DNA of 54,366 bases, from positions 1-54,366 of the forward strand of contig JALZUR010000045.1 of assembly GCA_023301025.1 (NCBI GenBank). The letters are read 5' to 3'. Below, in pieces: positions 1 through 36,652 of this stretch. The number at the start of each line of letters is the position of its first letter. Within the stretch, counting starts at the first letter, position 1. Both the position numbers and the translations under genes were made by a program. The DNA comes from Bdellovibrionales bacterium (GTDB lineage Bacteria > Bdellovibrionota > Bdellovibrionia > Bdellovibrionales > UBA1609). Below the pieces are notes generated by a model that was not told the DNA's origin, made no database searches, and was given only the letters and a program-made list of their open reading frames with translations.

Positions 1-3000
1 CCTCTTGCTTTTGATGTATCAGTTGTAAAAAGCGTGAATGTTCCTAACCCAACAGAAGGTCAAGAGGTCATATACACAATAACAGTTACAAATGAAGCTG
101 CTGCTACAACAGGTACAAATATTGTTGTAGGTGATCTTGTACCAGTAGGTGTAACTTATGTTGCTGGTTCTGCACCTTCAAGTCTTCCAGCAGGTGTAAC
201 TGTGAATGAATCAGCACCTACTGCAGGAAATGGTTTAGAGTGGACAATTGCAAGTCTTGCTTCTACGGCTACTGTTAATTTAGAGTTTAGAGCAGTTGTA
301 GATGCGGGTGCGGCACTTTCAAATCCAAGCATTCAAAACACGGCAAGTTATGTAAGTTCTGATCAAATTGATACAGCCCTTGGAAACAATGATGGTAGTG
401 CTACAATCACTGTTCAAGGTTTAGATGTTGGAGTTACAAAAACAGTTGATGACAACCAACCTATAGAAAATCAAGAAGTTACCTATACAATAACGGTAAA
501 CAACCTTAGCCCTCAAACAGTTACAAATGTTGAAATTACAGATGCTCTTCCAGCAGATCTAATTTTTGTTGCAGGTACAGCTACTGGACCTAATTTTGTT
601 TTAACAACTCCGGGGGGAGTAGAGACATTAACATGGACTATACCAAACCTGCCATCTTTAGCTTCGACAACACTAACCTTTAGAGCTTTAGTAAACACAG
701 GAACAGCAGGGGCTACACTTACAAACACGGCTACTCGCACAGGTATGACAGAGACCGATTCAAATGCTGTGAATGATTCATCTTCTGTGGATGTTACAGT
801 TGATCCATTTGATATTGAAATTGTAAAATCAGTTGATGACCCTACTGCCGAAGAAGGGCAAGAGGTCACTTACACTCTAACTTTAAACAACAACAGTGTG
901 GGTACAGATGCTACAGGCATAATTGTAAGAGATCTAGTTCCTGCTGGTTTATCTTTTGTTCCAGGTTCAATGACTGGAGGAGACGTTAGAGATCAAAGTA
1001 CACCTACATCTGTTGGTGGATTAAGATGGGACATTAACACTCTTACAAATGGTACACCTGTTGTTTTAACTTTTAGAGCAACTGTAAATACAGGGGCCGC
1101 AATAAGTAATCCTAGTATTCAAAACACAGCTACAATTACAAATTTAGATCAGATAGATAATGTTCCAGCAAACAACAGCTCTCAAGTTAATGTAAATGTT
1201 GTAGGTTTAGATGTTGAAGTCTTAAAATCTGTAGACAACGCATCACCAACTGAAGGTGATACAGTTGTTTACACAATTACAGTTAACAATTTAAGTTCTC
1301 AGCCAGTGAGCTCTGTAGTTCTTGGTGATGTAGTTCCAAGTGGTGTGACTTATGTTGCTGGATCAATTGTTGGTGGAGATTCAAATGATGATTCAACACC
1401 GGATTCTGGAAGTGGTCTTAGTTGGACCGTAAATACAATTGCAGGCAGTGGCAGTTCAAGCCTTAGCTTTAGTGCAACAGTTGACAGTGGAGCTGCAGCT
1501 TCTGGAACAATTACAAACAACGCAAATTTAGTTTCTATTGCAGAGACTCAAGTGAATACAGCCAATGATATTGGCAGTGCTGATATTAATGCACAAAGTT
1601 TTGATGTTGCAGTTACAAAATCCGTGGATGACTCAACTCCAGAAGAAGGGCAGTTGATCACATATACAATCACCGTTAGCAATGTAACTAGTTCAACAGG
1701 TAATACTGTCGTTGTAAGAGATATAGTTCCAACAGGTGTAACTTATGAACCAGGAACGATTTCTGGTGGAGACTTAAGATCAGATACAAGTCCGATTGGT
1801 ACAGGTTTAGAATGGACTGTAAACACATTAGGGGCTTTGGGTTCAGCTCAGCTAACATTTCAAGCTAGGGTAAACGCTGGAGCGTTAGCTACAAATCCAA
1901 CAATTATAAACACTGCAAACTTTATAAGTGCTGATCAGGTAGACTCAAATAATACAAATGATTCAGGCTCAGCAACTATAAATGTTGTAGGAATAGATTT
2001 AAATATTATAAAAACAGTTCTTCCAGTTTCTGCCGAAGAAGGTCAAACAGTAACCTATACAGTAGTTGTTAATAACCCTGGCACACAACCAGCAACAAAT
2101 ATTTTAATCAGAGATATTGTTCCGAATGGTGTGACGTATGTTGCAGGTTCACTCATTGGAGGGGATGCAAATGATGATTCAAGCCCTGATAGCACTGGTC
2201 TTACTTGGAACTTAACAAGTCTTAATGGTGGACAATCTAGAACTATAGAGTTTCAAGCAACAGTTGATGGTGGTGCATTAGCTATAAGTCCAATTGATAA
2301 CACTGCTGATATAGTTTCTTTTGATCAAACAGACAGTGTATTAACAGATAACACATCAACTGCAGCATTAACTGTACTTGGTTTAGATTTAGAAGTTGTT
2401 AAAACTGTGAGTGATTCAAATCCTGAAGAAGGAGAGCTAATCACATATACGATTACTTTAAACAATTTAAGTTCACAGGTTATTAATGGTGTAGAAATCA
2501 CTGATGTAGTTCCAGCAGGTGTGACCTATGTTACATCTTCTGCAGCAGGTACAACTCTTATTGATGATTCAAACCCAGCTGGTACAGGTATTATTTGGAC
2601 CGTTCCAGGAGACATTAGTAATGGCACTCCTGTTGTTTTAACTTTTAATGCTACAGTTGATGCCGGTACCGCTCCAGGAGCTACAACAATAGATAACACA
2701 GCTTTTGAGTCTGCTATGAATCAAACAGATTCAAACGATGCAAACAATACTTCGACTGTTTCAATTGATCCAATTGGTTTGGATATTGAAGTTTTAAAAG
2801 CTGTGAGCGACGCGACACCTACAGAAGGTGATACAGTTACCTACACAATTACAGTTAACAACTTAAGTTCACAAACAGCTAGTAATATTAATATTGGAGA
2901 TGTTGTTCCAAGTGGATTAACATACGTTGCGGGAAGTATCAGTGGTGGAGTTTCAAATTCAGAAGCTACACCTACAGCAAATGATGGTCTTACATGGGTT

Positions 3001-6000
3001 ATAAATAGTATTTTAGGCTTAAGCAGTGCGACTCTAACTTTTGATGCAAGTGTAAATGCTGCAACAGCTGGTACAACAATCACAAACAATGCGCTTTTAT
3101 TAAGCCTTACAGAAACAGAAGACGATGCTTCAAATAATACTGGTTCTGCTGTTATAACTCCAAGAGCTTTTGATATTGCAATTTTAAAATCTGTTGATGA
3201 TGACACTGCAGAAGAAGGTCAAGAGATCACTTTTACGGTAAATGTTGAAAATACAAGTACAACGGATGGAACAAATATTGTTGTACAAGATGTTTTACCA
3301 AATGGGTTAACTTTTGTTGCTGGCTCTCAAACTGGTCCAGGTGCTGCTTATGATGCAGGTACAAGAACTTTTACTTGGACTGTTCCTACACTTTTAGCAA
3401 ATAGTAATTTAAATTTTACCTACAGAACAACAGTTGATGCGGGAGCCACAACAACTTACGTTACAGCTGTAAATACAGCAAGTTATGTAAATTCTGATCA
3501 GATTGATTCTGCTGCAACAAACAATACGTCTTCAATTACAGTAACTTTTGTAGGTATTGATATTGAAGTTCAAAAATCTGTAAGTACTGCTAATCCTGAA
3601 GAGGGTGACACGATCGCCTACACGGTTAATGTGAACAATACGTCAACTCAGGCTGCAACAAATATTGAAATCACAGATATACTTCCAGTGGGTGTGACTT
3701 TTGTTGCTGGTTCTCAAACGGGTCCAGGTGCTAGTTATGATGCTGGAACTAGAACAATGACATGGCTGATTCCAAGTTTAGCAGGAGCTTCTGGCTCTAT
3801 ACTAACTTTCAACACAACTGTTGATGCTGGAACTGCTGGTACAACAATTTCAAACAGCGCAAGCTTAAGTAATATTGATCAGTCAGAAAGCAACACAACT
3901 AACAACACAGGAACTGTTGATATAAATCCTGTGGGTTTAGATATTGAAATTTTGAAATCTGTGGACATTCTAACACCTACTGAAGGTGATACAGTTGTTT
4001 ATACAATTACTGCAAACAACTTAAGTTCACAAGCTGCTACAACTGTTAATATTTCTGATGTTTTACCAAATGGTATTACTTATGTTGCAAGCTCAGTAAC
4101 AGGTCCAGGTGCTAATTATGATACTGGTTCTAATACACTTTCTTGGATTCTTTCAAATTTAGCTGGTGGTGCAAGTGAGACTTTAACTTTTAGTGCAACA
4201 GTAAATTCTTCTACTGCGGGTACAACAATTTCGAATAGTGCAACTCTTGTAAGTTTAGATCAAACAGATGACAATGCCGCAAATAATATTGGTACTGTGA
4301 ACATTTCACCTGTTGGTTTTGATGTAGCTATTTCTAAATCAGTTTCTGCTGCAAATCCAGAAGAGTCTAGTGTAGTGACTTATACAATTAATGTTGAAAA
4401 TGTTAGTGCAGCACCTGGGACTAATATTGTTGTAACAGACATTGTTCCGAGTGGTGTAACTTATGTTGCTTCGTCAATTGCAGGACCTGCTGGTGTAGTT
4501 ATTGATGATCTTGATCCTGCAGGAACGGGCCTTACGTGGAGCATTCCAACAATAAATGCAAGTGCTACTTTAACTTTAAGCTTTCAAGCTATGGTTGATT
4601 TAGGAACAGCTGGAACAACTGTTACAAACACTGCAAATAGAACCTCTTCTGATCAAGTAGATTCTAACCTAGCAAATGATTCAAGTTCAGTTGATATCAA
4701 CCCAGTTGGTATTGATTTAGAAGTTAATAAAGTTGTTAACGATGCCACTCCAGAAGAGGGTGATACAATAACATATACAGTTACTGTATCAAATCTTACA
4801 ACTCAAGATGCAACAAGTGTTACTATTTCTGATGTTCTCCCTTTAGGTATCACTTATGTCGTAGGCTCAGTAACAGGTCCTGGTGCTACATATGATGCTG
4901 GTACAAGAACTTTTACATGGATTTTGCCAGCAGTTAGTAATGGCACACCAATTGTCCTTGATTATGATGTTACAGTTGATGCGGGATCAGCTTCACTTGG
5001 AGTTTTAAGTAACACTGCAAATTTAGTAAGTTTAGATCAAACAGATAGCAATGCTGTAAACAACAGTTCTCAAGTTGATATTGATCCTGTTGGTTTAGAT
5101 GTTCAGGTCTTAAAAATAGTTTCTGATACAACACCTGAAGAAGGTGAAACTGTTGTTTATACAATTACAATTAACAATCTAAGCAGCCAACCTGCTACAA
5201 ACCTTACTATTGGTGATATTGTTCCAAGTGGAGTAACATATGCACCTTCAAGTATTACAGGTGGAGATTCAAACAGTGATACTACACCAAACACTGGTGC
5301 TGGTTTGACTTGGACTATAAATAGTCTTGCAGGAAACGGAAGTTTTGTTTTAAGTTTTTCAGCAGTTGTTGACGCTGCAACTTCTGGTACAACTATTGTA
5401 AATGATGCAACTCTTAATAGTTTAGATCAGACAGATGATAATGCTGTTAACAATACAGGAAGTGCAACAATTACTCCTGTTGGTGTTGATCTTGCTGTGA
5501 GTAAATCAGTGAGTGAAGTTAATCCTGTTGAAGGAAATACAATTACTTATACCGTAAATGTAGAGAATTTAAGTTCTCAGCCTGCATCAAACGTTGTAAT
5601 TACGGATGTTGTGCCCGCTGGTGTTACTTATACTGCAAGTTCTGTAACAGGACCAGGTGCAAGTTTTGACGTTGCTACGAACACTATTACATGGACAGTT
5701 CCAACGCTACTTGGTGCAGCTAATGAAACATTAACTTTTGATGCCACAGTTGACTCTGCAACTGCGGGAACAACTATTATAAATACTGTAAATTTAATTT
5801 CACTTGATCAAACAGATGATAATGCAACTAATGACTCTGGCTCTGTTTCAATCACGCCAGTTTCATTTGATATAGCTGTAAATAAAAGTGTTGATGACAA
5901 CACAGCAGAAGAAGGTCAAAGCATTACATTCACAATTACTGCGACAAACACAACAGCTGTTGATGGCACTAATGTTGAGATTACAGATGTGCTTCCTAAC

Positions 6001-9000
6001 GGTTTAACTTTTGTATCTGCGGCTCCGAGTGCTGGTACAGTAGATACAGTTGATCCTAGTGGTGCTGGTTTAGTTTGGAATTTACCATCAGTTTTAGGAA
6101 ATGCTTCGCAAACTTTAAATGTGGTTGCAACAGTTGAGACAGGAGCTGTTTCAGCTTTTGGGACTGCTACAAATACAGCTAGCTTAACAAATTCTGATCA
6201 GGTCGATTCAAACTCAGCAAATGATTCAAGCAGTGTTTTAATTACTTATATTGGTATTGATCTTTCATTAAATAAAACTGTAGACAATGCTAATCCAGAA
6301 GAAGGTGCTGCTGTTGTTTATACACTTGTTGTTGAAAATTTAAGTTCTCAAACAGCTACAAATATAAATGTGACAGATATTGTTCCTGTTGGTGTGACTT
6401 ATTTAGCAAATTCTATAAATGGTCCACCAGGTGTTGTAACAGATCAAACATCTCCAAATGGTACTGGTCTAGTTTGGAGCATTCCAACTCTAGCATCAGC
6501 TGCCACAGTTACCTTAAGTTTTACAGCATTGGTCGATGCTTCTACGGCTTCAACAACAATTACAAATACTGCAGATATTACAGCTCTTGATCAAACAGAC
6601 AGTATTACTGCAAACAACACAGACAGCGTTAACATTGTTCCTGTAGGTCTAGATCTTGAAATATTAAAAACTGTCAATCAGTCTACTCCAACTGAGGGTG
6701 ATACGATTACATACACAGTGCAGGTGAATAACACTAGTGCACAAACAGCAACGACTGTTGTAGTTAGTGATGTGCTGCCGGCTGGTATAACTTACGTTGC
6801 AGCTTCGGCAACTGGTCTTGGCGCGAATTATGATGGTGGAACAAACACAATAACGTGGACAGTTCCAAGCCTTCCTGGCCTTGCAAGTTCAACATTTACA
6901 TTTGATGCATCAGTAGATGCGGGTGCATCAGCCGGGTCAATCACAAACGATGCAACTCTTACTAGCTTAGATCAAACAGATGATAATGCTGTAAATAATC
7001 AAGGCTCGGTAACTATAAATCCTGTGTCTTTCGATATAAGAGTTGCAAAATCCGTTTCTAGTGCAAGCCCTAGTGAAGGTGAGACCATCACTTACACGGT
7101 TAATGTAGAAAATTTAAGTAGCGCTGATGGATCAAATATTACTATTGAAGATGTTCTGCCAGCAGGAGTTACTTATGTTGCAGCTTCAGTAGCGGGTCCT
7201 GGGGCAGCTTATGATGGAGTTACAAACACTTTAAGTTGGATGCTTCCAGCTTTAAATGGTGGCGCAAATATTAATTTAACTTTTGATGCTGTTGTGGATA
7301 ATGCTACAGCAGGTTCTACAATTACAAACACTGCAACTATGACTGCTGTTGATCAAGTAGATTCAGATCTAACTAACAACAGTGGTTCTGTGGATATAAA
7401 TCCAGTAGGCTTAGATCTTCAAGTTTTAAAAACCGTAAGTAATGTTACACCAGAAGAAGGTGCTACAGTTACGTATACAGTAACAGTAAATAACCTAAGC
7501 ACTCAAACAGCGACAAATGTTAACATTTTAGATGTTGTACCAAATGGTGTAACTTATGTGGCATCATCTATTGCAGGTGGAACTTTACAAAATGATACCA
7601 GCCCAACAGGTACAGGCTTAAGTTGGACCATTGCAAATCTTGCAGGTGGAGGAACTGAAACTTTAACTTTTGATGCGGTGGTAGATACAGGGGCTCGTGC
7701 TCTTAATCCAATTACAAACCGTGCTAATTTAAATACACTTGATCAATCAGAAGATAATCCTGCCAACAACCAAGGTGTTGCAGATATAAATGTTATTGGA
7801 TTAGATATAGCTGTTGCAAAAGCAGTAGACAACGCAACTCCTACAGAGGGAGATAATGTTGTTTATACTATTACAGTTGAAAATTTAAGTTCGCAAAATG
7901 CAACAAACGTTAATATTTTAGATATTGTGCCAGCAGGTGTAACTTATGTGGCATCATCTATTGCAGGTGGAACTTTACAAGATGACACCAGTCCAACAGG
8001 TACAGGACTTAGTTGGACTATTGCAGCTCTTAACGGTGGAGCTAGTGAAACATTAACTTTCACAGCTAGTGTAGATGGTGGAGCTTCGGCTTTTAATCCA
8101 ATCACGAACACAGCAACGATTAACACTGTTGATCAAAGTGAAGAAGACAATGGAAACAACTCTGGTTCTGTAAATATCAATGCACAAACTTTTGATATCT
8201 CAGTAGCTAAAGCTGTGAACAATGTAAATCCTGAAGAGGGTGAGACCATAACCTACACTCTTACGGTTTCAAACAACACACCTGCCATTATTGGAACAGG
8301 AATTCAGATCACTGATATAGTGCCAAGTGGTGTGACATATGTTGCGGGTTCAATGGTTGGTGGAGATATTCAAAACGAAGCAAACCCTGATTCAACAGGT
8401 CTTGTTTGGACTATCAACTCAATTGATGCAAATAATGTTTCTCTAAGTTTTCAAGCAGTGGTTGATTCTGGTTCTGCAAGTGTTGGAGCCATTACAAACA
8501 CAGCAAGTCTTACAGCATCTGATCAAGTAGATTCAGACGTAAGTAATGATAATGGATCTGTAGATATTGATCCGGTAGGTATAAACATTGAAGTTAGAAA
8601 GAGTGTTAGTGTTGCAAGTCCTGAAGAGGGAAGCACTGTTACTTATACAATTGAAGTTGAAAACTTAAGTTCACAAGGTGCAACGAATTTAAATATTTCT
8701 GATGTGATTCCAACAGGTGTGACATATGTTGCAGCTTCTGTAACTGGTACTGGTGGCACCTATGATGCTGGTACAAATACTCTTACTTGGGCTTTTGCGA
8801 GTCTGTTAGGTGGAGCTACTGAAACACTTAGCTTTCAAGCGAGTGTTAATTCAGGGACTGCAGGAAGTACAATTACAAACACTGCTAATCTTATTTCTAT
8901 TGCAGAAACTGAAGACACTCCTGCAAACAATACATCAAGTGTTGATATTAACCCTGTAGGTTTAGATCTTTCAGTGAATAAATCTGTGAGTAATGCTACT

Positions 9001-21000: not shown

Positions 21001-21978
21001 GTTGATGCTTGGCCTGCAGGTTTAGAAATTATAAGTGCTAACAGTCCTGACTTTAACATAGGAACATTCACTTGGAACATTGGAACTCTTCCAGTTGGTG
21101 CTAGTGCTGATGTAATTATCACTGCAAGAGCTAGGCCTGGAACTGCAGGAAGTACAATTACAAATGCAATAACTTATAGTTTGGATCAAACAGATTCAAC
21201 TGCGGGAGATGTGTTGAGTGTTGATGTTCAAGTTAACAACAACTTAGATCTTGTGATTGCACATGATGTTGACAATGATAGACCTAGTGAACTTGATACT
21301 GTCAGATTTACTGTAGAAGCTACTAACAACGGACCTGCTAGAGCAACAAATATAAGTTATGTTTACAATCTGCCTGTTGGTTTAACTCTTTCTAGTGTGA
21401 GCCCTGATTCAGGTTCAAGCTTTGCTTCTGACACTTGGACTATACCGCAGCTTGATGCTGGTCAAACTATTGCACTAATCGTAGAAGCTACGGTAAATGC
21501 AGGAACTGCAGGGTCTACATTTACTGCAAATATTGGAACTCAAATACTTGATCAAATAGATTCAAATATCACACCTGATGATTTTGATGAAGATGTCACA
21601 GTAAGAAATGAATCTGATATTTTTGTTCAAAAAATAGCAGATCAAAATATTGTTTTTGAAGAAGATGAAGCTGTATTTACAATCACTGTAACTAACAGAG
21701 GGCCTTTAAATTTAAATACGCTTTCTTTAGACGATGATGTTCCTCAAGGGCTTCAAGTTTTAAGTGCTACAACTTCAAGAGGAACTTATACAGCTCCAAC
21801 ATGGAACATTGGTCCAATGTCAGTCGGTGAAACAGTAACTTTAACTATTAGAACTCAAGTTGAAGAAGACACTGCTAATACTAGTATTGTAAACACTGTT
21901 ACAAATATTGTATCTGACAGGGCTGACAATAACGTCTCTCCTGATGATCTAACAGAAAGTTTGGATATTCTAGGAACT
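1..21978 (+). repeat. Array of 57 tandem DUF11-type repeats (about 385 bp each)
   Basis: Hand count of repeat starts gives 57 units, the first incomplete. Roughly repeats 1-36 use an N-L-S-S-Q or similar linker after the second strand, followed by a V-x-P-x-G-V-T-Y strand. From about repeat 37 (near 14040) the linker becomes the classical N-N-G-P. From about repeat 42 most units end in T-P-D-D-L-x-E. Each unit has a conserved Trp strand and ends in an Asp/Asn-rich segment. Most N-terminal units contain only one or two lysines, so this part is strongly acidic. The count is by eye and could be off by one. Confidence 0.9.
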
Positions 21979-24900
21979 AGTTCAGTAATTGTCTCTATTG
22001 ATTATTCAAAAGAGGTAGTTGCTGTTGGTGATCTTTTAGGTGTAACAGTTGAAGTTGAAAGTTTGATTGATTCAGACTTTAACCCTTTAACAACCACAGT
22101 TCGTCTTCCGCAAGGTATATCATATATAGAAGGTACTTCTAATATCTTAATTCCAGGTGATGATGGAGTCTTTGGCACAGAAGACGATTCTACTGCTGAA
22201 ACAACTGATGCAGAACTCACGAGTCTGAACACGGTACACAGTTTAAGATTTAATGGTAAAACATTGGCTTACGACTACAACACTCTTGGAAGAACCGTAA
22301 ACAGATATACTTTTATGACAAGAGTGGGTGCAACTGCAATTGGTGGAAAACTTACTGCAACAGCTGTGGCAAGCTTTACAGGAGCAGAAGTAAGTTCTTT
22401 AGCAACAGATATTGTTATTGTTGAAAACAATGAAATTTCAGATTTAACAAACATACTTGGTAAAGTTTTTCATGATAGAGATGGTGATGGCTACCAAGAC
22501 GACGCAAGAGTAAGTGGTGTTAAAGTTTATGGCGGAACACCTGTTGAAAATATTATAGAAGACACGGCACAAGTTAGTTATGGTGATGGATTTGAAACTG
22601 TAAGTGGAAACTTAGAGCGTGGATATAGAGTTGGTTACTTAGATTCTAAAAAGAGCATCACAGATGAAAGTTCAAGATCAAGTGCTGTGCTTAGAGTTCA
22701 AGTGCGTGAAAATACGTTAGATGAGTTAGTTGTTAAATCTAGTGAAGGTACTAGAACTGTTATAGATGTTGGTGGACAAAGCTATCACAAGCACAGAGGT
22801 GCTGTGAAAAAAGGTATGAACTCTCAAGATCTTTTAATTAATAGATTTATTAAAGAAATTGATGAAAAAATGTGGCTTTATGTGGTTATAAAAAACCAAG
22901 GTTTAAAAGAAGAAGGACTTCCAGGTGCTAGAGTTATTGGTGTTGATGGTCTTACTATTGAAACAGATGAGTACGGAAGGTTCCATATCTCTGATGTAGA
23001 GACAAGAAGATATAGAATGCAGAATTATATCTTAAAGCTTGATATGAGAAGTCTTCCTGGAAATGCTAAAATGACGACAGAAAACCCAAGAGTTATAAGA
23101 CTTACTGGTGGACTTCATACTAAGTTTAATTTTGGTGTTCAAATGCCAGAAAAAGACGTTAAAGTATATGCGTCTAAAAAGTTTAATGAGATCTTCTTTA
23201 AAACAGGTAAGTTTGATATTGAAGAGACAGAGCAAGAAAAAGTTAAAAAGGTTCAATCAGAGCTTAGTATGCTGCCAATTGAGCTTGAAGACTCAAAAGT
23301 ATTGATACAAGGTTTTGCTGATTACAGAGGACTAAGTTCAGTAAACAAAGACCTATCTCTAAATAGAGCTCAAACTGTTCTTAATAAGTTTGATAACATT
23401 AGACCTGATCTACACTTTAAAATGAGTTTAGATAACGAAGCTCCAAATGAGGGTGATGAAGTTAACTTTACTTTGGTTGTTGAAAATAGAGGATTAGGCG
23501 AAGTTTATGATCTTGTTATTGATATGCCAATGGATAAGCACTTAGAGCTTGTTAAAACTAAAACATCTAAAGGTACATATGATGCTACAAGATGGTTAGT
23601 AGGAAGTCTTGAAGGTAAAGATTCAGCTAAAATTGAATTTACGACAAAAGTAAAAGAATTTACCAGTGATGAAGGCTTTGTAATAGCAGCTAATTCATAC
23701 CTTTATAGAGGAATGGATGAAGCTAAAGAGATAGATACTGTACTCGCTAGTGGAAAAGTTAAAAATGATTTAGATCTTGAAGTTACTATTTCATCTAATT
23801 TAGAAGAAGTAGATGAAAGAGAGAAGTTTGAAGTTGTATACACTGTTGTCAACAACGGGCCTGCGGCTGCAACAAATCTAAAAGTGGAGCTTGGTTCATT
23901 AAAGAGCTTTGATGTATACTCTATGACTTCTGATAAAGGCTCAATAGCTAAATCAAATTGGAGTATAGGAACATTACGTAAAACAGAAAAAGCTGTTTTA
24001 AAATTAAGCCTAAGTGCCAAAGTGAATACAGCTGATCAGTCTATAGATATTGCAATAGATAATATTGGTATGGATCAAGTAGATATTAATCAATCATCAG
24101 ATCTTATGAGCTTGGCAGTTTTAGTCAAAAATGATTTAGATCTATTTATCTCAAGTGTTGTTAGCAAATCAACGGCTGTTGAATTTGATGAACTAACATA
24201 CGAAGTTATAGTTCATAATAAAGGCCCTATTAGAGCTACTAATGTAGAACTTTCTATTGATCTAGCTGATGAGTTTAATTCTCTTAAAACTAGATCTAGC
24301 TCTGGTACCTATAAATCAGGTGTTTGGACACTACCAAGTGTAGAAAATGGCACAAAAGAAAAGCTTAAACTTGTGCTTCAGGTAGCTCCTGGTTCTGGTG
24401 GCGAAACCTTAGTAAATGAAGTTTACGAGGTGTCTGTTGATCAAGAGGATTTAAATACTACTAAAGATATTTATACTACTGAAAGTAAAATTTTAAATGA
24501 AACTGATGTTGTTGTAACAAAAGTTGCATCAAATGAAAGACCACAAGAAAATCAACACTTTGATATGATCTGGACTGTTGAAAACAGAGGACCTGCTAGA
24601 TTAGAGTTCTTTGAGCTTGAAGATATTTTAAGTGATAAATTAGTAGCAGTAGAGGCTTCTAAAGTTGAAACTGGTAGAGTTGAAGGAAACACTTGGAAAA
24701 TTGATGCTCTTAACTCTGGTGAAAAAGTTACTATGACTAAAACTGTTTATGCTGTAGCTGGTACTGGTGATTTAACAATTTCAGATAAAGTTGAATCTAT
24801 CACTCATGAGCAGAAAGATACAAAATCTAACTCTAAACTTATTGCTAAAGTTAAAATTGACAACAGTACTGAACTTGAGCTTATTAAAAACTTCAATGCT

Positions 24901-26760
24901 GAAAATGCTAAAGAAGGTGATAATATTTGGACTACTTTAAAAATTACAAATATTGGTCCAGCTGTTGCTAAAAACATTTTAATTAAAGACTACCTACCTG
25001 AAGAGTTTATAGATACGAAAGACTATAGACACACCAAAAATTCTAATCTAATTGATGGTGGGTGGAGTATTGAAAGTCTTGCAGTAGGTGAAGAATCTAA
25101 TCTGTCATGGAAGAGCACTTTAAGATCTGGATCTGGTGGTAAGGTTATTATAGATACTGTTGATGAGATTACTCTTGATCAAGATTTTAAATTAAATATT
25201 AAAGATCAGTACACTCCGACACTAAAAGTTTCTAATGATACAGACTTAAAAGTTACTTTAATTAGTAATAAGCAAAAAATAGATCTTGGTGAAGAATTTA
25301 GCTATGAGTTAACTTTTGAAAACTATGGCCCAACAAAAGCTGAAGACCTAAAAGCTAAGCTAGTTCTTGATAAGTGTTTAACTTTAAAAAGTTTTAATTC
25401 AGAGCAAATGATCTTCAAAAAAGGTAAGATTAAGGTCTTAAGTATTGATACAAAAGCTAAAGCAATCGCTACTGTAAGTGTTATGTCTGACTTTAAGTGT
25501 TCTAAAGATGAATTTAAGACTTTTATAAAAGATTTTTATTTAGAACAGAATGATATAAATACTTCTAAAGATCAGTATAAAACAGAAGTTAAAATCAATG
25601 ATAAAACAGATCTAAACATTCAAGTGGTTACTGAAGTTGAGAGTGTTCATGAAAACAAAGAATTTGAGTATTTAATTCATGTTAAAAACAATGGCCCAGC
25701 ATTTGTTAATACAGGAGCGTTAAAATTTGAAATTTCTGATAGCTTAGAGATAGTGAGATTAAAATCTACTAACAAACATAAAGAAGGACAGACTTGGAAT
25801 TTTGAAAATCTTGCAAAAGGTGAGTCAGAAACTTTAACAGTAAAAGTTAGATCTAAGTTTAAAACTTTCGGACAAAAAGCTACTTTTAGAGTAACAGAAG
25901 TTAAAACAAACAGAGTAGATATCAATAGTAGTAAAGATGTAAACCAATTAAAACATAGTATAAGTGATAAGGTTGATTTAGCTATTAATATATTCCCTGA
26001 TCAAGAAAATGTAGATAAACCTTTCTTAAATTATACTTATGAAATCGTAAACCATGGTCCAGGTGTAACAACTAACTTAAGAATGGCTATTATTCTTGAA
26101 GAAGATCATTTAGATAAAGGTAAAGTTTCTACATCTAAAAATGCTGATTATGATCTTGGATTTTTTAAAGTGGATTTACTCTACCCTGGAGATAAAGCGA
26201 TCTTTAAATCTGAGCATAAGATTAAGTCTTTTACTGAAAATATAATAGAAGCAACTTACAAGAACTTATCTTTTGATCAAAAGGATTCTAATTTAACAGA
26301 AGACAAATTAACAGGACAAGTAAGTGTTGTTAATGCTACAGAACTTAAAGCTAAAAAATTAATGTCAGTTAAAAGACCAGAATTAGGTGAGAATTTTGTT
26401 TATACTTACACTTTAAAGAATACAGGCACGCAAGTGGCTAGAAAAATTGTTCTAAAAGACACCTTAGATACAAGTATTTTTGAGACTATAGGTGAGTCTG
26501 AATGTGACCTTGGAGAGTGTAAAAATCTTGGGTTATGGACAATTGATCAGATTGATCCTGGTCAGACTGTGACATTAAAAATTCCATTAAAGATGGTTGC
26601 AAGGCCAGCGAATGCTTTAATAGTTTCAGATCCAATAGATGAACTTAAGATGGAACAAACTAACTTACTGTCTTTAGATAAAATGTTACTTTTTGACTTT
26701 AATCTTGATGCACAAAAAATTAAAAAACGTGCTGTAGCTGGGGAGACAGAAGATGAATAA
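1..26760 (+). CDS. Giant DUF11-repeat surface protein with internal OmpA-like domain (5' end outside window)
   Basis: The frame is open from base 1 and begins in the middle of a repeat, so the true start and any signal peptide lie upstream; the GTG at 34 is not a credible start. At least 8,919 residues are visible. I count 57 tandem DUF11-type (TIGR01451-like) repeats of about 128 residues to about 21978, each starting with a D-[LIV]-x-[VI]-x-K-[ST]-V strand and carrying an L-x-W-[TS]-I strand and a late D-Q-[TSV]-[DE] motif. A divergent repeat follows (21979-22440), then an SdrD/CnaB-like region, an OmpA-like domain (about 23158-23403) and nine lysine-rich repeats. DUF11 repeats are Ig-like beta domains of surface proteins. 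Its stop overlaps the start of the barrel gene by 8 bp, implying coupled expression. Inferred role: a long envelope-anchored adhesin or surface fibre. I noticed no cysteine before the last few repeats. Confidence 0.93.
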   Translation, partial: PLAFDVSVVKSVNVPNPTEGQEVIYTITVTNEAAATTGTNIVVGDLVPVGVTYVAGSAPSSLPAGVTVNESAPTAGNGLEWTIASLASTATVNLEFRAVVDAGAALSNPSIQNTASYVSSDQIDTALGNNDGSATITVQGLDVGVTKTVDDNQPIENQEVTYTITVNNLSPQTVTNVEITDALPADLIFVAGTATGPNFVLTTPGGVETLTWTIPNLPSLASTTLTFRALVNTGTAGATLTNTATRTGMTETDSNAVNDSSSVDVTVDPFDIEIVKSVDDPTAEEGQEVTYTLTLNNNSVGTDATGIIVRDLVPAGLSFVPGSMTGGDVRDQSTPTSVGGLRWDINTLTNGTPVVLTFRATVNTGAAISNPSIQNTATITNLDQIDNVPANNSSQVNVNVVGLDVEVLKSVDNASPTEGDTVVYTITVNNLSSQPVSSVVLGDVVPSGVTYVAGSIVGGDSNDDSTPDSGSGLSWTVNTIAGSGSSSLSFSATVDSGAAASGTITNNANLVSIAETQVNTANDIGSADINAQSFDVAVTKSVDDSTPEEGQLITYTITVSNVTSSTGNTVVVRDIVPTGVTYEPGTISGGDLRSDTSPIGTGLEWTVNTLGALGSAQLTFQARVNAGALATNPTIINTANFISADQVDSNNTNDSGSATINVVGIDLNIIKTVLPVSAEEGQTVTYTVVVNNPGTQPATNILIRDIVPNGVTYVAGSLIGGDANDDSSPDSTGLTWNLTSLNGGQSRTIEFQATVDGGALAISPIDNTADIVSFDQTDSVLTDNTSTAALTVLGLDLEVVKTVSDSNPEEGELITYTITLNNLSSQVINGVEITDVVPAGVTYVTSSAAGTTLIDDSNPAGTGIIWTVPGDISNGTPVVLTFNATVDAGTAPGATTIDNTAFESAMNQTDSNDANNTSTVSIDPIGLDIEVLKAVSDATPTEGDTVTYTITVNNLSSQTASNINIGDVVPSGLTYVAGSISGGVSNSEATPTANDGLTWVINSILGLSSATLTFDASVNAATAGTTITNNALLLSLTETEDDASNNTGSAVITPRAFDIAILKSVDDDTAEEGQEITFTVNVENTSTTDGTNIVVQDVLPNGLTFVAGSQTGPGAAYDAGTRTFTWTVPTLLANSNLNFTYRTTVDAGATTTYVTAVNTASYVNSDQIDSAATNNTSSITVTFVGIDIEVQKSVSTANPEEGDTIAYTVNVNNTSTQAATNIEITDILPVGVTFVAGSQTGPGASYDAGTRTMTWLIPSLAGASGSILTFNTTVDAGTAGTTISNSASLSNIDQSESNTTNNTGTVDINPVGLDIEILKSVDILTPTEGDTVVYTITANNLSSQAATTVNISDVLPNGITYVASSVTGPGANYDTGSNTLSWILSNLAGGASETLTFSATVNSSTAGTTISNSATLVSLDQTDDNAANNIGTVNISPVGFDVAISKSVSAANPEESSVVTYTINVENVSAAPGTNIVVTDIVPSGVTYVASSIAGPAGVVIDDLDPAGTGLTWSIPTINASATLTLSFQAMVDLGTAGTTVTNTANRTSSDQVDSNLANDSSSVDINPVGIDLEVNKVVNDATPEEGDTITYTVTVSNLTTQDATSVTISDVLPLGITYVVGSVTGPGATYDAGTRTFTWILPAVSNGTPIVLDYDVTVDAGSASLGVLSNTANLVSLDQTDSNAVNNSSQVDIDPVGLDVQVLKIVSDTTPEEGETVVYTITINNLSSQPATNLTIGDIVPSGVTYAPSSITGGDSNSDTTPNTGAGLTWTINSLAGNGSFVLSFSAVVDAATSGTTIVNDATLNSLDQTDDNAVNNTGSATITPVGVDLAVSKSVSEVNPVEGNTITYTVNVENLSSQPASNVVITDVVPAGVTYTASSVTGPGASFDVATNTITWTVPTLLGAANETLTFDATVDSATAGTTIINTVNLISLDQTDDNATNDSGSVSITPVSFDIAVNKSVDDNTAEEGQSITFTITATNTTAVDGTNVEITDVLPNGLTFVSAAPSAGTVDTVDPSGAGLVWNLPSVLGNASQTLNVVATVETGAVSAFGTATNTASLTNSDQVDSNSANDSSSVLITYIGIDLSLNKTVDNANPEEGAAVVYTLVVENLSSQTATNINVTDIVPVGVTYLANSINGPPGVVTDQTSPNGTGLVWSIPTLASAATVTLSFTALVDASTASTTITNTADITALDQTDSITANNTDSVNIVPVGLDLEILKTVNQSTPTEGDTITYTVQVNNTSAQTATTVVVSDVLPAGITYVAASATGLGANYDGGTNTITWTVPSLPGLASSTFTFDASVDAGASAGSITNDATLTSLDQTDDNAVNNQGSVTINPVSFDIRVAKSVSSASPSEGETITYTVNVENLSSADGSNITIEDVLPAGVTYVAASVAGPGAAYDGVTNTLSWMLPALNGGANINLTFDAVVDNATAGSTITNTATMTAVDQVDSDLTNNSGSVDINPVGLDLQVLKTVSNVTPEEGATVTYTVTVNNLSTQTATNVNILDVVPNGVTYVASSIAGGTLQNDTSPTGTGLSWTIANLAGGGTETLTFDAVVDTGARALNPITNRANLNTLDQSEDNPANNQGVADINVIGLDIAVAKAVDNATPTEGDNVVYTITVENLSSQNATNVNILDIVPAGVTYVASSIAGGTLQDDTSPTGTGLSWTIAALNGGASETLTFTASVDGGASAFNPITNTATINTVDQSEEDNGNNSGSVNINAQTFDISVAKAVNNVNPEEGETITYTLTVSNNTPAIIGTGIQITDIVPSGVTYVAGSMVGGDIQNEANPDSTGLVWTINSIDANNVSLSFQAVVDSGSASVGAITNTASLTASDQVDSDVSNDNGSVDIDPVGINIEVRKSVSVASPEEGSTVTYTIEVENLSSQGATNLNISDVIPTGVTYVAASVTGTGGTYDAGTNTLTWAFASLLGGATETLSFQASVNSGTAGSTITNTANLISIAETEDTPANNTSSVDINPVGLDLSVNKSVSNATPTEGDEITYTITVENLSSQPATNAVVSDVVPSQLSYVLTSATGPGAVYDAVTETITWTIPTIAAASTSTLTFRANVDAGASAFNPITNTANFVSADQTDDQVANNQGSVDINVQTFDLAVSKAVDNSSPEEGQTISYTITVTNVTPSVQGTNIEITDVVPSGVTYVPASISGGDLRDDSNPNSTGLVWTINTINTTDVILSFEATVDSGSASLGVITNTASLTNSDQIDSEVGNNNGSVDIDPVGLDLQVLKTANNVTPEEGATVTYTITVNNLSSQPATNVNILDVVPNGVTYVPASITGGDLSDDSSPTGTGLSWTINTLLANGTASLTFDATVDVGARALNPITNRANLNTLDQTEDNPANNEGVAAVNVIGLDIAVAKAVDNVTPTEGDNVVYTITVENLSTQTATNIQIIDPVPSQVTYVASSITGGSTQDDTNPAAGLTWTIGSLAGGASETLSFTANVNGGASAFNPITNTATLSSVDQSEEDNGNNSGSVNIDAQTFDASVSKTVDNATPEEGQTVTYVITLSNVTPAIMGTNIQVTDIVPNGVTYVPGSISGGDVRDDANPDSTGLVWTINTLDGTDVLLSFDATVDVGARAFNPITNTTNITAVDQFDSNAANDTSSVNINVVGLDLEVRKSVNESGPEEGETVTYTIEVENLSTQNATNINVSDVLPNGVTYVPASVTGPGGNFDAGTETLSWLIPALAGGATTVFTFEATVDTGARALNPISNSALLGALDQSEENAANNTGTADINVVGLDIAVSKSVDNPSPTEGDSVVYTVTVQNLSSQPATNVNVLDPVPAQLTYVASSIAGGSLRDDSDPVAGLSWTINTLGAGASVDLTFSANVNGGASAFNPITNTASLNSVDQSEEDNGNNSGSVDIIAQTFDASVAKAVSESSPEEGETVTYTLTVTNETTSINGTNIEITDTLPNGVTYVSASVTGPGGTYDVATRTLTWVIPSLLGAAVETLSFQATVDTGAVLLGTITNTATRTNSDQFDSNTANDSGSVDITPVGLDIQIQKNVNNDEPIEGENIVYTISVTNLSSQIATNVVVNDLVPDGVTYVAASILGGASQNDATPDSGSGLEWSIATLNAAQTIDLQFTANVDTGAQVAFGTVTNTAGLVSLDQSEDNAANNTDDQIITIQPFDLAVDKSVSILEPTEGQLITYTIEVENLASVAATNVTLNDLIPAGVTYVAASIAGGDTRDDATPTTGNGLTWTINTLASGATASVSFDATVDAGAQATYGTITNTGSLFSLDQVDGNPANNSDNVTITVRGIDIAINKTVNQPAPEEGQTITYSLTVENLSIIGATNIVINDIVPNGVTYVPGSITGGDIRDESTPDTANGLSWTINTLSGSATENLTFDAVVDSGARALNPITNTGLIATLDQTDENATNDTSSVDVNAVGIDLQVVKSVDNGTPAEGEVVNYTLTVTNLSSQSATNVVLRDVVPDGVTYVATSIAGGDTQVDADPEGVGLTWTINNLASGADASVTFAASVDLGSFAAFGTVTNTGALDSVDQSEENAANNTDSVDIIIQSIDIGIDKTVSNISPNEGEVITYTLEVSNISGFTATNIVINDLLPAGITYVPASITGGDTQDESTPNSGNGLTWTIANLNGGPPGNVVTLTFDAVVDNGARALGPVINAGEITAVDQTDSDPTNNRSTATITARGLDLEVVKTVNDTQPVEQDIVTYTLEVTNNGPSNATNILINDLVPTGVTYQIGTMSGGDAQNEATPNSGSGLVWSINSLLSGDSVFLTFQGQVDVGTGGTVITNTAQVDAVDQTEENPVNDAGSVDIVVQAIVDIVIQKNSDKADYEEGETVVYTITVTNNGPSLASAIEVRDFVPADISYTNATIMGGDVQDDTDPSGSGLAWTINTLSPLAPNNTVTLTFSGTVNPGANLNTPVVNTATKTAVAQTESDVTNDSDNASINILNDLDISLAKTVSNTTPSIGDIITYSIDVTNAGPTQASGVVINDVVPNGTIYLSGTDSGADSVSSSDPSGAGVDFTINTIDAGDTQTITFNVLIEDNANLLNPITNNALLSSVVQNDIDATNDTAAVDINVNSDLDVSIIKSVDNPMPFELDEVIYTIVVTNNGPAGASNVVVNDILDAGLTYVVGSMTGGDVQNDATPNSGVGLEWTINQILNGDFVTLTFRATPNAGTSGSTITNTTNISAVDQPDVDALNDASTVDIIVRNDADLIILKTVDNNLPSENDVLTYTLTVTNAGPSISRDVIINDLVPTGLSYVVATASGGDIQNDATPNTGAGLSWTINEMLNGDIVVLSFQATVDVGQAGNIIRNTGDIVSFTSTEADPSNNSSFVDVTVDNGVDLQIIKSVNENNPSEGDTVSFTIAVTNNGPSNRASAINITDVVPVGLTYVTASIAGGDTQIDADPNGAGLNWVINTLDVGNTVNLTFNATVDILTAGNTIVNTAVFNSFDQIDSNISPDDLTETLTVNDDIDLQLVKTVSRPDPSPLEVITYTVTLTNNGPTTGANITVNDIVPAFVDYQPGSATGGDTINDTDPNGAGITWTINQINVGQTVTMTFDAAAQMSTINTTITNTATYTHIYNDTTPNDSPSVDILVTGRSDIFVTKTVDNPTPREAENFVFTVNVQNRGPINVSDLVIVDPLPAGLTYVSDNTGNYNPATGEWTIGFIPAGSASTLNLTVQANPGTGGQVITNTVTAINTIIVDTNITPDDLSESVTVIENTDIYILGSVSNANPDEQEIVTFTFDIENRGPTTGTNLGLETVLPPGLTFIPGSQTGGDTSSATGSTLNWNIATSNVNDIDTLTFQVSVDPGIGGSSLSVLLDLIAIDQTEDPVPADDNQVDLVIGNDADIFFTKVANINNANEGDTVTFTITATNNGPTRARNLMITEDLSPFYTLVNQSATVGTYTGNVWTIGNLDSGATAVLTIDVTVNAGSSGQTITNLLENQSQDQIDVNVTPDDLEETVIIGANTDVEILLSIIDDPGNDSVLEENQVFTYQVSVRNIGPAQVTNFSFDLFNPSQVSYNTGNETLTSGSFSFPTWSIPSIDVGATEILTVEATVNPGTFGQTATANVTNIMMDQVDGNVTPDDLTEVVTIDDEVDLYIQKIVDVTNPNEGDQINFSVIVENRGPADATGIVIEDIFPDAFLNLEFAAPTQGVFNSTTRVWTIASLSPGQTGVLTLTARVRTGSSGNTITNTVQLTALDQTDSNLTPDDLSETLNVSDVVDLEISKVVSNPTPDEGEVITYTITVRNNGPSVGTNFTLEDQIPTGITVQSIVTNIGSYAPDIWSIPNLPNGFIAIMEVEALVEFGVGGTLIRNEITNVAVDQTDTIGATNDILIADINVNHDTDFYIEKVADEAVYSEGDTVTYTITSTNNGPALAQNASLEDLLPVGVTYQSHTADNATVYDETTGLWTLNDVPVGQTNTLEILATVDPGTNGSTIVNTITNVTLDETDTEANPDDLDESILIINDLDIAVSIAADVTQVDEQNEVNLTISAINLGPARATDVQLNYTVPPQFAFVSATPSVGTYDELTGDWDVSQINVTENVTLTVVVRALEGQGGQIVPMTTTLTAVNQNEIQPANNTDSVDVEINHVNDLTITKIVDNNTPKETDRVIFTLTVANAGPAQSQNLILTDSMPAGLTFESVVSATQGTYNGTDWNVGNLSMGATASIDIEASVDVGTNGQTITNLITNIAQDETDLVNSDDLDEVLVIDRNVDLEITKTVNNPTPAEGDTIEFTLTLINNGPIEITNLILDDPMPAGLTFVAAQTPTNGVFTSPQWSIASLPSGDTATVVLEATVDVGTANSTITNLITSIVMDQIDETPGNNDLEETITVANESNLVVTKIVDNSSPNESDSVIYTITLANNGPAQATNVALTDVIPAGLTLLSSTPSLGTYIGDVWTLGTMANGQTESLSLTAQVNIGQSGNTIVNQVTNVSLDQNDSNTAGDDLDEPITVGNTLDLAVSISTSDTVVDEGQNHTYTLRVTNNGPNQASNLSVVDAWPAGLEIISANSPDFNIGTFTWNIGTLPVGASADVIITARARPGTAGSTITNAITYSLDQTDSTAGDVLSVDVQVNNNLDLVIAHDVDNDRPSELDTVRFTVEATNNGPARATNISYVYNLPVGLTLSSVSPDSGSSFASDTWTIPQLDAGQTIALIVEATVNAGTAGSTFTANIGTQILDQIDSNITPDDFDEDVTVRNESDIFVQKIADQNIVFEEDEAVFTITVTNRGPLNLNTLSLDDDVPQGLQVLSATTSRGTYTAPTWNIGPMSVGETVTLTIRTQVEEDTANTSIVNTVTNIVSDRADNNVSPDDLTESLDILGTSSVIVSIDYSKEVVAVGDLLGVTVEVESLIDSDFNPLTTTVRLPQGISYIEGTSNILIPGDDGVFGTEDDSTAETTDAELTSLNTVHSLRFNGKTLAYDYNTLGRTVNRYTFMTRVGATAIGGKLTATAVASFTGAEVSSLATDIVIVENNEISDLTNILGKVFHDRDGDGYQDDARVSGVKVYGGTPVENIIEDTAQVSYGDGFETVSGNLERGYRVGYLDSKKSITDESSRSSAVLRVQVRENTLDELVVKSSEGTRTVIDVGGQSYHKHRGAVKKGMNSQDLLINRFIKEIDEKMWLYVVIKNQGLKEEGLPGARVIGVDGLTIETDEYGRFHISDVETRRYRMQNYILKLDMRSLPGNAKMTTENPRVIRLTGGLHTKFNFGVQMPEKDVKVYASKKFNEIFFKTGKFDIEETEQEKVKKVQSELSMLPIELEDSKVLIQGFADYRGLSSVNKDLSLNRAQTVLNKFDNIRPDLHFKMSLDNEAPNEGDEVNFTLVVENRGLGEVYDLVIDMPMDKHLELVKTKTSKGTYDATRWLVGSLEGKDSAKIEFTTKVKEFTSDEGFVIAANSYLYRGMDEAKEIDTVLASGKVKNDLDLEVTISSNLEEVDEREKFEVVYTVVNNGPAAATNLKVELGSLKSFDVYSMTSDKGSIAKSNWSIGTLRKTEKAVLKLSLSAKVNTADQSIDIAIDNIGMDQVDINQSSDLMSLAVLVKNDLDLFISSVVSKSTAVEFDELTYEVIVHNKGPIRATNVELSIDLADEFNSLKTRSSSGTYKSGVWTLPSVENGTKEKLKLVLQVAPGSGGETLVNEVYEVSVDQEDLNTTKDIYTTESKILNETDVVVTKVASNERPQENQHFDMIWTVENRGPARLEFFELEDILSDKLVAVEASKVETGRVEGNTWKIDALNSGEKVTMTKTVYAVAGTGDLTISDKVESITHEQKDTKSNSKLIAKVKIDNSTELELIKNFNAENAKEGDNIWTTLKITNIGPAVAKNILIKDYLPEEFIDTKDYRHTKNSNLIDGGWSIESLAVGEESNLSWKSTLRSGSGGKVIIDTVDEITLDQDFKLNIKDQYTPTLKVSNDTDLKVTLISNKQKIDLGEEFSYELTFENYGPTKAEDLKAKLVLDKCLTLKSFNSEQMIFKKGKIKVLSIDTKAKAIATVSVMSDFKCSKDEFKTFIKDFYLEQNDINTSKDQYKTEVKINDKTDLNIQVVTEVESVHENKEFEYLIHVKNNGPAFVNTGALKFEISDSLEIVRLKSTNKHKEGQTWNFENLAKGESETLTVKVRSKFKTFGQKATFRVTEVKTNRVDINSSKDVNQLKHSISDKVDLAINIFPDQENVDKPFLNYTYEIVNHGPGVTTNLRMAIILEEDHLDKGKVSTSKNADYDLGFFKVDLLYPGDKAIFKSEHKIKSFTENIIEATYKNLSFDQKDSNLTEDKLTGQVSVVNATELKAKKLMSVKRPELGENFVYTYTLKNTGTQVARKIVLKDTLDTSIFETIGESECDLGECKNLGLWTIDQIDPGQTVTLKIPLKMVARPANALIVSDPIDELKMEQTNLLSLDKMLLFDFNLDAQKIKKRAVAGETEDE
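5866..12456 (+). repeat. Higher-order repeat: three-domain units of about 1.16 kb
   Basis: Repeats beginning with Phe-Asp rather than Leu/Ile-Asp, usually with an extra short insert before the second strand, start at 5866, 7030, 8191, 9346, 10513 and 11674. The spacings are 1164, 1161, 1155, 1167 and 1161 bp, exactly three DUF11 units each; the next Phe-Asp unit is at 12457, two units later. This points to amplification of a three-domain block rather than of single domains. Confidence 0.8.
21979..23403 (+). other. Non-repeat core of the giant protein: divergent repeat, SdrD/CnaB-like folds, OmpA-like domain
   Basis: After a divergent repeat, a G-K-V-F-H-D-R-D-G-D-G-Y-Q-D stretch (about 22456-22500) matches SdrD B-like domains, including their Asp-rich calcium-type loop. 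A second beta domain at about 22890-23150 has a T-D-E-Y-G-R-F motif and the stretch T-T-E-N-P-R-V-I-R-L-T-G-G-L, typical as I recall of DUF11/barrel surface proteins. About 23158-23403 reads as an OmpA-like C-terminal domain: F-F-K-T-G-K-F-D-I, then G-F-A-D-Y-R-G, then N-K-D-L-S-L-N-R-A. The Asp of F-A-D and the Arg of N-R-A correspond to the residues that bind diaminopimelate in OmpA, so attachment to peptidoglycan is plausible. Confidence 0.8.
23404..26757 (+). repeat. Nine C-terminal divergent, lysine-rich DUF11-like repeats
   Basis: Nine further units follow the OmpA-like domain, starting with P-D-L-H-F-K-M, L-D-L-E-V-T-I, L-D-L-F-I-S-S, T-D-V-V-V-T-K, T-E-L-E-L-I-K, T-D-L-K-V-T-L, T-D-L-N-I-Q-V, V-D-L-A-I-N-I and T-E-L-K-A-K-K. 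They keep the G-P linker and the D-Q-x-D ending in part, but are rich in Lys and Glu and much less Thr/Asp-rich than the N-terminal units. The only cysteines I see in the protein are here (near 25375, 25498, 26503 and 26518). Confidence 0.8.
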
Positions 26761-32864: not shown

Positions 32865-33458
32865 TTACTCAGGTATAACTTGAATGTCGTCTTTAAATTC
32901 ATTTGATAAAATGCCTTGAATAGCTTGTAGTGTTCCCATAGTAGAGCTTGGGCAATTCCCGCAAGCACCTTGAAAGGTGACAAAGAGTTCAGGGTGATCG
33001 TAGTCATTAATTTCAATGTCTCCTCCATCAGCTCTAAGCCCTGGCCTAATGGTTCGATCTAGAATAGCCTCTAAACTTTGTATATCAGGTGACTGTTCTT
33101 TACGTTTTTCTTTTTTTTGCTCGTCTTTAATCTCTTCGGGTGTTTTAAAATTTGTATCAAAGTCTTTAAACTGAGTTTTAATAATTGGTGCAACAAAGCC
33201 TTTGAGCTCTTCATTGTCCCACTCTCCATTGTGTGTGACTGTCATAGTGTTTTGAAAAATAAAAATTTGGCTTATATTGTTTAAGTTAAACACAGACTCT
33301 ACTATAGGCATTCCATCTTGAACTTCAGTGAGCCCTCTATAACTTACTTTTCCAGATTGTTTTAAAGTCTGATTAACAATAAATTTAATTGCGTGTGGGT
33401 TAGGTGTAGCTTGCGGCCTAACTTTTACCTCTTCAGTTGTAGTATTTTTATTTGTCAT
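32865..33458 (-). CDS. nfuA: NfuA/NifU-like Fe-S cluster carrier
   Basis: The 197-residue protein has an Nfu N-terminal-type domain (about 10-103, starting T-P-N-P-H-A-I-K-F), a short charged linker, and a C-terminal NifU domain (about 125-195) with the cluster-binding motif G-A-C-G-N-C-P-S-S (C166 and C169). Such proteins receive clusters from SufBCD and pass them to target enzymes. It is the last gene of the suf operon, 46 bp after sufS. The A-type-like N-terminus of gammaproteobacterial NfuA is replaced by the Nfu-N domain found in many other bacteria. Confidence 0.9.
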   Translation of the reverse strand: MTNKNTTTEEVKVRPQATPNPHAIKFIVNQTLKQSGKVSYRGLTEVQDGMPIVESVFNLNNISQIFIFQNTMTVTHNGEWDNEELKGFVAPIIKTQFKDFDTNFKTPEEIKDEQKKEKRKEQSPDIQSLEAILDRTIRPGLRADGGDIEINDYDHPELFVTFQGACGNCPSSTMGTLQAIQGILSNEFKDDIQVIPE

Positions 33459-33504
33459 AGTGTTTGGATCTTCTTTTATTTTTTTCTTAGTATTTTATTT
33501 ATGT

Positions 33505-34698: not shown

Positions 34699-34701
34699 AA
34701 A

Positions 34702-36572: not shown

Positions 36573-36652
36573 TTTTACCTAATCTTTATTTTTTAAATCT
36601 TATTTTTACTGGTTCTAATATTTGTTTATCAATAGTTACTAACGTTTCGAAA

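Follow-up and report, generated by a model that had tools for sequence, protein, structure and literature searches.

How does a fibrillar adhesin that is anchored by an OmpA-like domain cross the outer membrane? This step is not covered in the adhesin papers that we found in the open-access literature, and it is raised in an extreme form by a giant gene of a Bdellovibrionales bacterium, whose 3' part opens the window analysed here, i.e. the whole of contig JALZUR010000045.1 (54,366 nucleotides; C45 in the following) from a genome assembly of 2.03 Mb in 55 contigs that is 97.5% complete. The repeat unit of the encoded protein, DUF11, is the CLIPPER domain, for which a Lys-Asn isopeptide bond catalysed by an Asp was shown in 2025, and arrays of this domain have been assigned to the stalks of fibrillar adhesins (PMC12617251). 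In the crystal structure of one DUF11 domain (9IFR) the bond joins Lys715 and Asn806, with Asp748 as the third residue; removal of the lysine shifts the melting transition from ~80 to ~45 degrees C and leaves the domain protease-sensitive (PMC12617251). CLIPPER adhesins with OmpA anchors are likewise already known (PMC12617251, PMC10952558). In the following we argue that the gene probably encodes an OmpA-anchored CLIPPER fibrillar adhesin with a stalk of locked Ig-like domains, and that a barrel protein encoded directly behind it is its partner, most likely serving as the pore for its display.

The features of the locus are compiled in Table 1. Frame 1 contains no stop between base 1 and the TAA at 26758-26760 and no frameshift over 26.7 kb, in agreement with the preliminary description, which had reported an unbroken frame of more than 8,900 residues. 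A profile made from the repeats themselves returned the same 57 canonical, one divergent and nine C-terminal units that had been counted there by eye. The 57 units tile aa 5-7323 with ~130 aa apiece, falling to ~122 aa, the last 14 being shorter and more divergent, and the nine C-terminal units start at aa 7804, 7926, 8048, 8170, 8292, 8416, 8538, 8660 and 8782. The HMM search that had been proposed for the repeat count places PF01345 above its cut-off at 65 positions in the window ORF (and at 6 on contig C24, see below), and the NCBIfam models matched are TIGR01451 and the isopeptide-forming domain TIGR04226. The 57-repeat array is acidic (pI about 4.05) and free of cysteine.

Table 1. Coordinates of the features in the window
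Feature	Position	Strand	Remarks
Giant adhesin gene, 3' part	1..26760	+	8,919 aa; 5' end open; TAA 26758-26760
57 tandem DUF11/CLIPPER stalk repeats	13..21975	+	aa 5-7325
Repeats 20-21, modelled pair	7411..8193	+	two Ig-like beta-sandwiches
One divergent Ig-like unit	21976..22380	+	about aa 7326-7460; without triad; lysine content begins to rise
SdrD_B/CarboxypepD-like module	22381..23160	+	aa 7461-7720; recognised via relatives, not directly by Pfam
OmpA-like domain	23161..23406	+	aa 7721-7802; PF00691 positions 1-63 of 98
Nine degenerate C-terminal DUF11-like repeats	23407..26757	+	lysine-rich, 10.6% K
Barrel partner	26753..30640	+	1,295 aa; signal-peptide-like N-terminus, E/K-rich linker, predicted large outer-membrane beta-barrel
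Thioredoxin/TPR protein	30982..32796	+	604 aa; signal-peptide-like; next gene, same strand as barrel
nifU-like, sufS, sufD, sufC, sufB, rrf2	32865..38562	-	neighbours outside the system; synteny anchor

Since the genome is a draft in 55 contigs, the length of its tandem array could reflect inflation or collapse during assembly. The longest exact DNA repeat in the ORF, however, measures only 46 bp, and every 51-mer is unique, so that ordinary short reads resolve the array and the usual assembly artefact does not apply; together with the unbroken frame and a mean amino-acid identity of 44% among the first 43 repeats, this makes such an artefact extremely unlikely. The array probably grew by duplication of repeat blocks, since its middle part displays a weak three-unit period (identity 0.50-0.51 at lags 3 and 6 versus 0.44-0.47 at the other lags up to 9) and the closest repeat pairs, R20/R26 and R21/R27, are ~80% identical.

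That the frame is already open at base 1, as had also been noted before, finds its explanation on another contig of the same genome, the right end of which very probably carries the missing 5' end. Contig C24 terminates (base 78,416) within an open DUF11 frame of 1,068 aa (C24:75211-78416), which begins with a TTG start codon at C24:75211 and encodes an N-terminus that resembles a signal peptide (judged by eye, as was that of the barrel protein), a domain of 268 aa and six DUF11 units. Summed over both pieces, the protein comprises at least 9,987 aa and 1.04 MDa, encoded by 29,964 bp (1.5% of the genome), with at least 73 repeats, at least 63 of them in the stalk; the N-terminal domain and this total length depend on repeat phase and synteny, the two contigs not being physically joined. 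The earlier figure of about 67 repeats is therefore exact for the window and too low for the whole protein.

It could be objected that C24 starts one DUF11 protein and C45 ends another, because no exact suffix-prefix overlap was found between the two contig ends and the longest word common to the C24 end and the window has 18-19 bp. Against two separate genes, no other contig end in the genome lies in an open DUF11 frame, the two are correctly oriented towards each other, and C24 stops at phase 111 of the 130-residue repeat, C45 beginning at the next unit; by repeat phase the gap amounts to ~16-20 aa, or to the same plus any whole number of repeats. Synteny points in the same direction. Three relatives (G015, G003 and G019) share the order sufB-C-D-S-nifU, ~20 kb, clpP-clpX-lon, followed by the same regulator gene in G015 and G003 and by tRNA-Val in G015. 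Here, the clpP-clpX-lon block, the regulator and tRNA-Val precede the giant gene on C24, and the suf operon lies inverted beyond the 3' end of the giant gene on C45. A single inversion whose breakpoints lie behind nifU and behind the 604-aa gene yields the present order (block, 5' part of the giant gene, its 3' part, barrel, inverted suf operon) only if the contigs join, and synteny therefore supports the join. Taken together, we regard two separate genes as very unlikely.

Some further observations concern this neighbourhood. The suf operon (window 32865-38562) and the clpP-clpX-lon block (L009/C24:54590-74142), same-direction neighbours in the relatives, are here separated and inverted with the giant locus between them. 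The tRNA-Val(tac) just upstream of the giant gene (L009:12690-12765) has its counterpart in G015 (L130:14491-14566), where it follows the same lon and regulator genes without a giant gene; the locus thus sits downstream of a tRNA gene. The 604-aa thioredoxin/TPR gene was considered as a component of the system and rejected, as no homologue of it stands beside the barrel in the loci of relatives. A 734-aa ORF further along the window (38892-41096) has only a weak Neuraminidase-like Pfam match.

The stalk units carry the residues that are expected of a self-locking domain. In an alignment of all 73 units, a Lys in the first strand, an Asp in 'DxVPxG' and an Asn in 'ITNTA' are near-invariant, and this triad was derived from the alignment first and afterwards matched to Lys715, Asp748 and Asn806 of 9IFR; as a phmmer search of the PDB with one repeat reaches 9IFR only at E 0.12, the correspondence rests on alignment and spacing. 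The triad occurs in 54 of the 63 stalk repeats (counting one with Glu for Asp), so that an internal isopeptide bond would form in most of the stalk. The three residues also disappear together: all 54 units with the lysine have the Asn and 53 of them the Asp (the remaining one having Glu), and among the nine lysine-less units the Asp is gone as well in eight and the Asn in seven. Fisher's test gives 1e-11 to 1e-14 for this co-loss over the 73 units and 2e-8 and 7e-8 over the 63 stalk units, values that are indicative only, since the repeats are related by descent. Of all conserved columns, those of D and N show the strongest association with K, and in 43 aligned repeat pairs both halves have K7, N28, D41 and N103 without exception. 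The 57-repeat array, with its 7,322 residues, contains only 55 lysines; the lysine of the triad accounts for 52 of them. In the C-terminal units the pattern is different: K and D are retained in C4, C5 and C9, which have Asp where Asn is usual and are possible Lys-Asp isopeptide variants, and the other six lack the triad.

That the units are Ig-like, as had been proposed, is borne out by the AlphaFold model of two repeats, which consists of two beta-sandwiches (pLDDT 97.5, pTM 0.84) and thus displays the CnaA-like/Ig-like fold of a CLIPPER adhesin. Among solved structures it is closest to tandem Ig-like stalks; the neighbours comprise integrin Ig tandems, C-terminal domains of antigen I/II and pilins, and some of them hold intramolecular isopeptide bonds (2wza, antigen I/II C-terminal: two). 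At 4 nm per domain, a straight fibre of the 63 stalk units would be roughly 250 nm long.

At the base of the stalk, aa 7461-7802 form an SdrD_B-like plus OmpA-like module that has its homologue at the base of the stalks in relatives. The PF00691 match is above cut-off, lies away from the C-terminus and covers the model only in part; in three relatives the OmpA match likewise stops at positions 64-66, so that the shortening looks like a family trait. An Asp (in GFAD) and an Arg (in LSLNRA) occupy the peptidoglycan-binding positions of OmpA domains, and the module may anchor the fibre to peptidoglycan. Composition changes at the same point: the array contains 0.8% lysine, the sequence from the SdrD_B/OmpA module onward 6-16%, and in all 65 relatives compared the K+R content is smaller on the N-terminal side of the module than within it (median 2.4% versus 10.6%). 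We suggest that this boundary between lysine-poor and lysine-rich sequence would separate the part outside the cell from that in the periplasm. The stalks of relatives mostly end within ~200 aa of the OmpA match, and the 1,119-aa tail of nine repeats that follows the module here is unusual among them.

At the opposite end, the 268-aa domain gives no direct match in Pfam or the PDB. Regions homologous to it in three large proteins of the phylum are Laminin_G_3, and through these homologues the domain appears to be ConA/LamG-like, making a carbohydrate- or surface-binding tip plausible. This architecture also bears on whether the protein might rather be a scaffold of a surface coat or matrix, S-layer-like or biofilm-forming, that has no binding tip. 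DUF11 repeats do occur in archaeal surface-layer proteins as well (PMC12617251), and the stalk is strongly acidic and repetitive; yet a distinct N-terminal domain related to the LamG-like domains of the phylum's large proteins, and an OmpA-like anchor combined with a single linear array, fit fibrillar adhesins and not sheet-forming S-layer proteins. A coat function thus appears unlikely to us. The preliminary description of a giant surface protein that forms a long attachment fibre gains support from these data, the role in attachment being suggested by the architecture of the protein.

The start codon of the barrel gene, at 26753, overlaps the stop region of the adhesin gene by 8 bp, so that the two are probably translationally coupled. 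Behind its E/K-rich linker the protein continues with ~900 residues of beta-strands. Neither Pfam nor NCBIfam has a family of its own for it: in a scan of 20 out of 54 barrel relatives, seven matched the general model OMP_b-brl, none matched an NCBIfam model, and the autotransporter beta-domain PF03797 was absent from the window barrel and from these 20 family members. The structural model, of moderate quality (pLDDT 77.6, pTM 0.74), contains 42 strands with a minimum length of 8 residues, including 34 beyond residue 450, and suggests a large outer-membrane barrel. Its structural matches are nearly all outer-membrane barrels, among them the usher FimD (Z 15.7, 371 residues) and SprA (8gl6; Z 12.1, 605 residues, the longest alignment, at 14% identity), and porins and TonB-dependent receptors score nearly as high, with overlapping scores. 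Similarly, Foldseek returned large outer-membrane barrels at low TM-scores (LptD, TonB-dependent receptors). A sequence profile of the barrel gave chance matches only against solved structures, and a search of a viral library gave nothing useful. We found no paper on this barrel partner in the open-access literature.

The association of stalk and barrel is conserved far beyond this organism. A scan of 84,980 species genomes recovered 414 relatives of the barrel, of which the best 80 were used; these belong to Gammaproteobacteria, Campylobacterales, Desulfobulbaceae, Nitrospirota and Myxococcales. Cultivable carriers of the pair include, for example, strains of Kangiella and Lysobacter. Upstream DNA is available for 75 loci from this set: 22 encode stalk and barrel as one fused chain and 51 encode the barrel directly behind the stalk, and the linked stalks carry the SdrD_B/OmpA-like module. 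The remaining two also fit on inspection: in one (L112) the stalk frame overlaps, and in the other (L087) the barrel itself bears an OmpA domain and stands behind a repeat protein. As far as the open-access literature goes, we found no earlier description of what appears to be a constant pairing of such stalks with this barrel family. Within its own phylum the barrel is present in only five of 369 genomes (weakly in one), and the locus is therefore patchily distributed. Two members of another family of the phylum (G126 and G127) have a homologous barrel and stalk downstream of lon. Their gene order is reversed, with the barrel first and then the stalk (G126:C5, G127:C22; L025, L027-L029), and the G127 stalk has 3,457 aa, other repeat types and several OmpA-like domains.

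Other repeat proteins were encountered along the way. Contig C49 of the genome studied here (G000) holds a second, small pair (L010:2733-6954), in which a 464-aa OmpA-type barrel protein comes first and the second protein, of 944 aa, combines a single DUF11 domain with TSP3-like repeats and a hydrophobic C-terminal segment. A different genus of the organism's family (G025:C49 ~229292-238522, L023) has an open frame of 8,825 aa that gives only two weak DUF11-like matches and encodes a giant protein of different composition.

What the barrel does is open to two readings. It could be a base plate or surface receptor on which the finished adhesin docks, the stalk itself crossing elsewhere, e.g. 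by type II secretion. This would be analogous to the T9SS, in which separate PorP-like barrel proteins retain some of the cargo at the surface (PMC9143113), and it would accommodate a barrel model without a demonstrated channel and a gene order that differs between genomes, with either stalk or barrel first. On the other hand, in the 22 fused loci the barrel follows the stalk C-terminally, which is the order of classical autotransporters, and the nearest structures include the secretion pores FimD and SprA, even if porins and TonB-dependent receptors are nearly equal. We consider docking on a base plate possible and retain a display pore as the most likely role of the barrel.

Comparison with known systems places the protein as a variant of the known CLIPPER/OmpA and giant cross-linked adhesins, near the upper end of their size range. 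MpAFP of Marinomonas primoryensis depends on RTX/type I secretion, and Mobiluncus mulieris has an envelope of the Gram-positive type, hence neither an OmpA anchor nor an outer-membrane barrel. RTX repeats were not found by Pfam in the C-terminal 1,586 aa of our protein. MpAFP shares with it a giant Gram-negative stalk of Ig-like domains (1.5 MDa, ~120 repeats), but the repeats of MpAFP are identical and stabilised by Ca2+ (PMC4083281). The adhesin of M. mulieris (7,651 aa, 51 Ig-like domains) is likewise a giant single chain of internally cross-linked Ig-like domains, whose links are a mixture of ester, isopeptide, disulfide and thioester bonds (PMC10619420). Closest is B9T28_05395 of Acinetobacter silvestris (2,129 aa), the source of 9IFR, which is Gram-negative as well and combines an N-terminal adhesive region, a DUF11/CLIPPER stalk, an OmpA-like anchor and the Lys/Asp/Asn triad, with a K-to-D spacing of 33 residues as against ~34 here (PMC12617251). 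The present protein differs from it in being at least 4.7 times longer, in a stalk without cysteines, in a tip that is LamG-like instead of CshA_NR2-like and in the nine extra repeats after the OmpA-like module. The separate barrel gene is a further difference, no such partner of B9T28_05395 having been found in the accessible part of PMC12617251.

The barrel, too, has partial counterparts. SprA, the T9SS translocon, is a barrel of 36 strands (PMC10994853) and shares with the window barrel its very large size in the outer membrane, but there is no sequence-profile match between the two, and stalk and barrel are here paired or fused one to one. No T9SS parts were identified here: SprA_N (PF14349) had no match in the genome, nor in the control genomes, and a T9SS cargo sorting domain is absent from the C-terminal 1,586 aa (Pfam) or 1,594 aa (NCBIfam). 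A published account of T11SS cargo deals with DUF1194, not with DUF11, and has no bearing on this locus. Type Va autotransporters resemble the fused relatives in having a passenger-like N-terminal stalk and a C-terminal barrel in one chain. In contrast to them, our locus consists of two genes (the one-chain form being limited to the 22 relatives mentioned above), its barrel greatly exceeds the 12-strand autotransporter domain in size, and passenger and barrel are separated by an OmpA-like module.

If the barrel is a display pore, assembly might proceed as follows. The adhesin would first be exported by Sec, and its N-terminal tip, followed by the stalk, would pass to the cell surface, where the finished chain is expected to reside. 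Each Ig unit would fold and lock itself through Lys, Asp and Asn, giving a chain that resists pulling, heat and proteases. The SdrD_B-like and OmpA-like modules would hold the base of the stalk to the peptidoglycan, and the nine lysine-rich, mostly lock-less repeats would stay in the periplasm, where tail and barrel would complete the base. The barrel would be the working partner of the adhesin, and its task would most likely be to form the pore for display of the stalk. We tentatively raise a broader proposal, that these loci represent an undescribed display system, in which a barrel of usher or SprA size (~34 or more strands), fused or adjacent, would export an N-terminal stalk, perhaps as pre-locked Ig domains, and a periplasmic OmpA-like module would hold that stalk; it would extend across Gammaproteobacteria, Campylobacterota, Desulfobacterota, Nitrospirota, Myxococcota and the organism's own phylum.

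The gene carries the CLIPPER design near to its extreme, with at least 63 stalk domains and hardly any lysine outside the bond site. Locked stalks of a million daltons may be of interest as mechanically tough protein materials. For the biology of these adhesins, the near-absence of lysine except at the bond site amounts to a natural experiment on the purpose of the lock, and the strict pairing of stalk and barrel offers a testable answer to the question of how OmpA-anchored fibrillar adhesins may cross the outer membrane.
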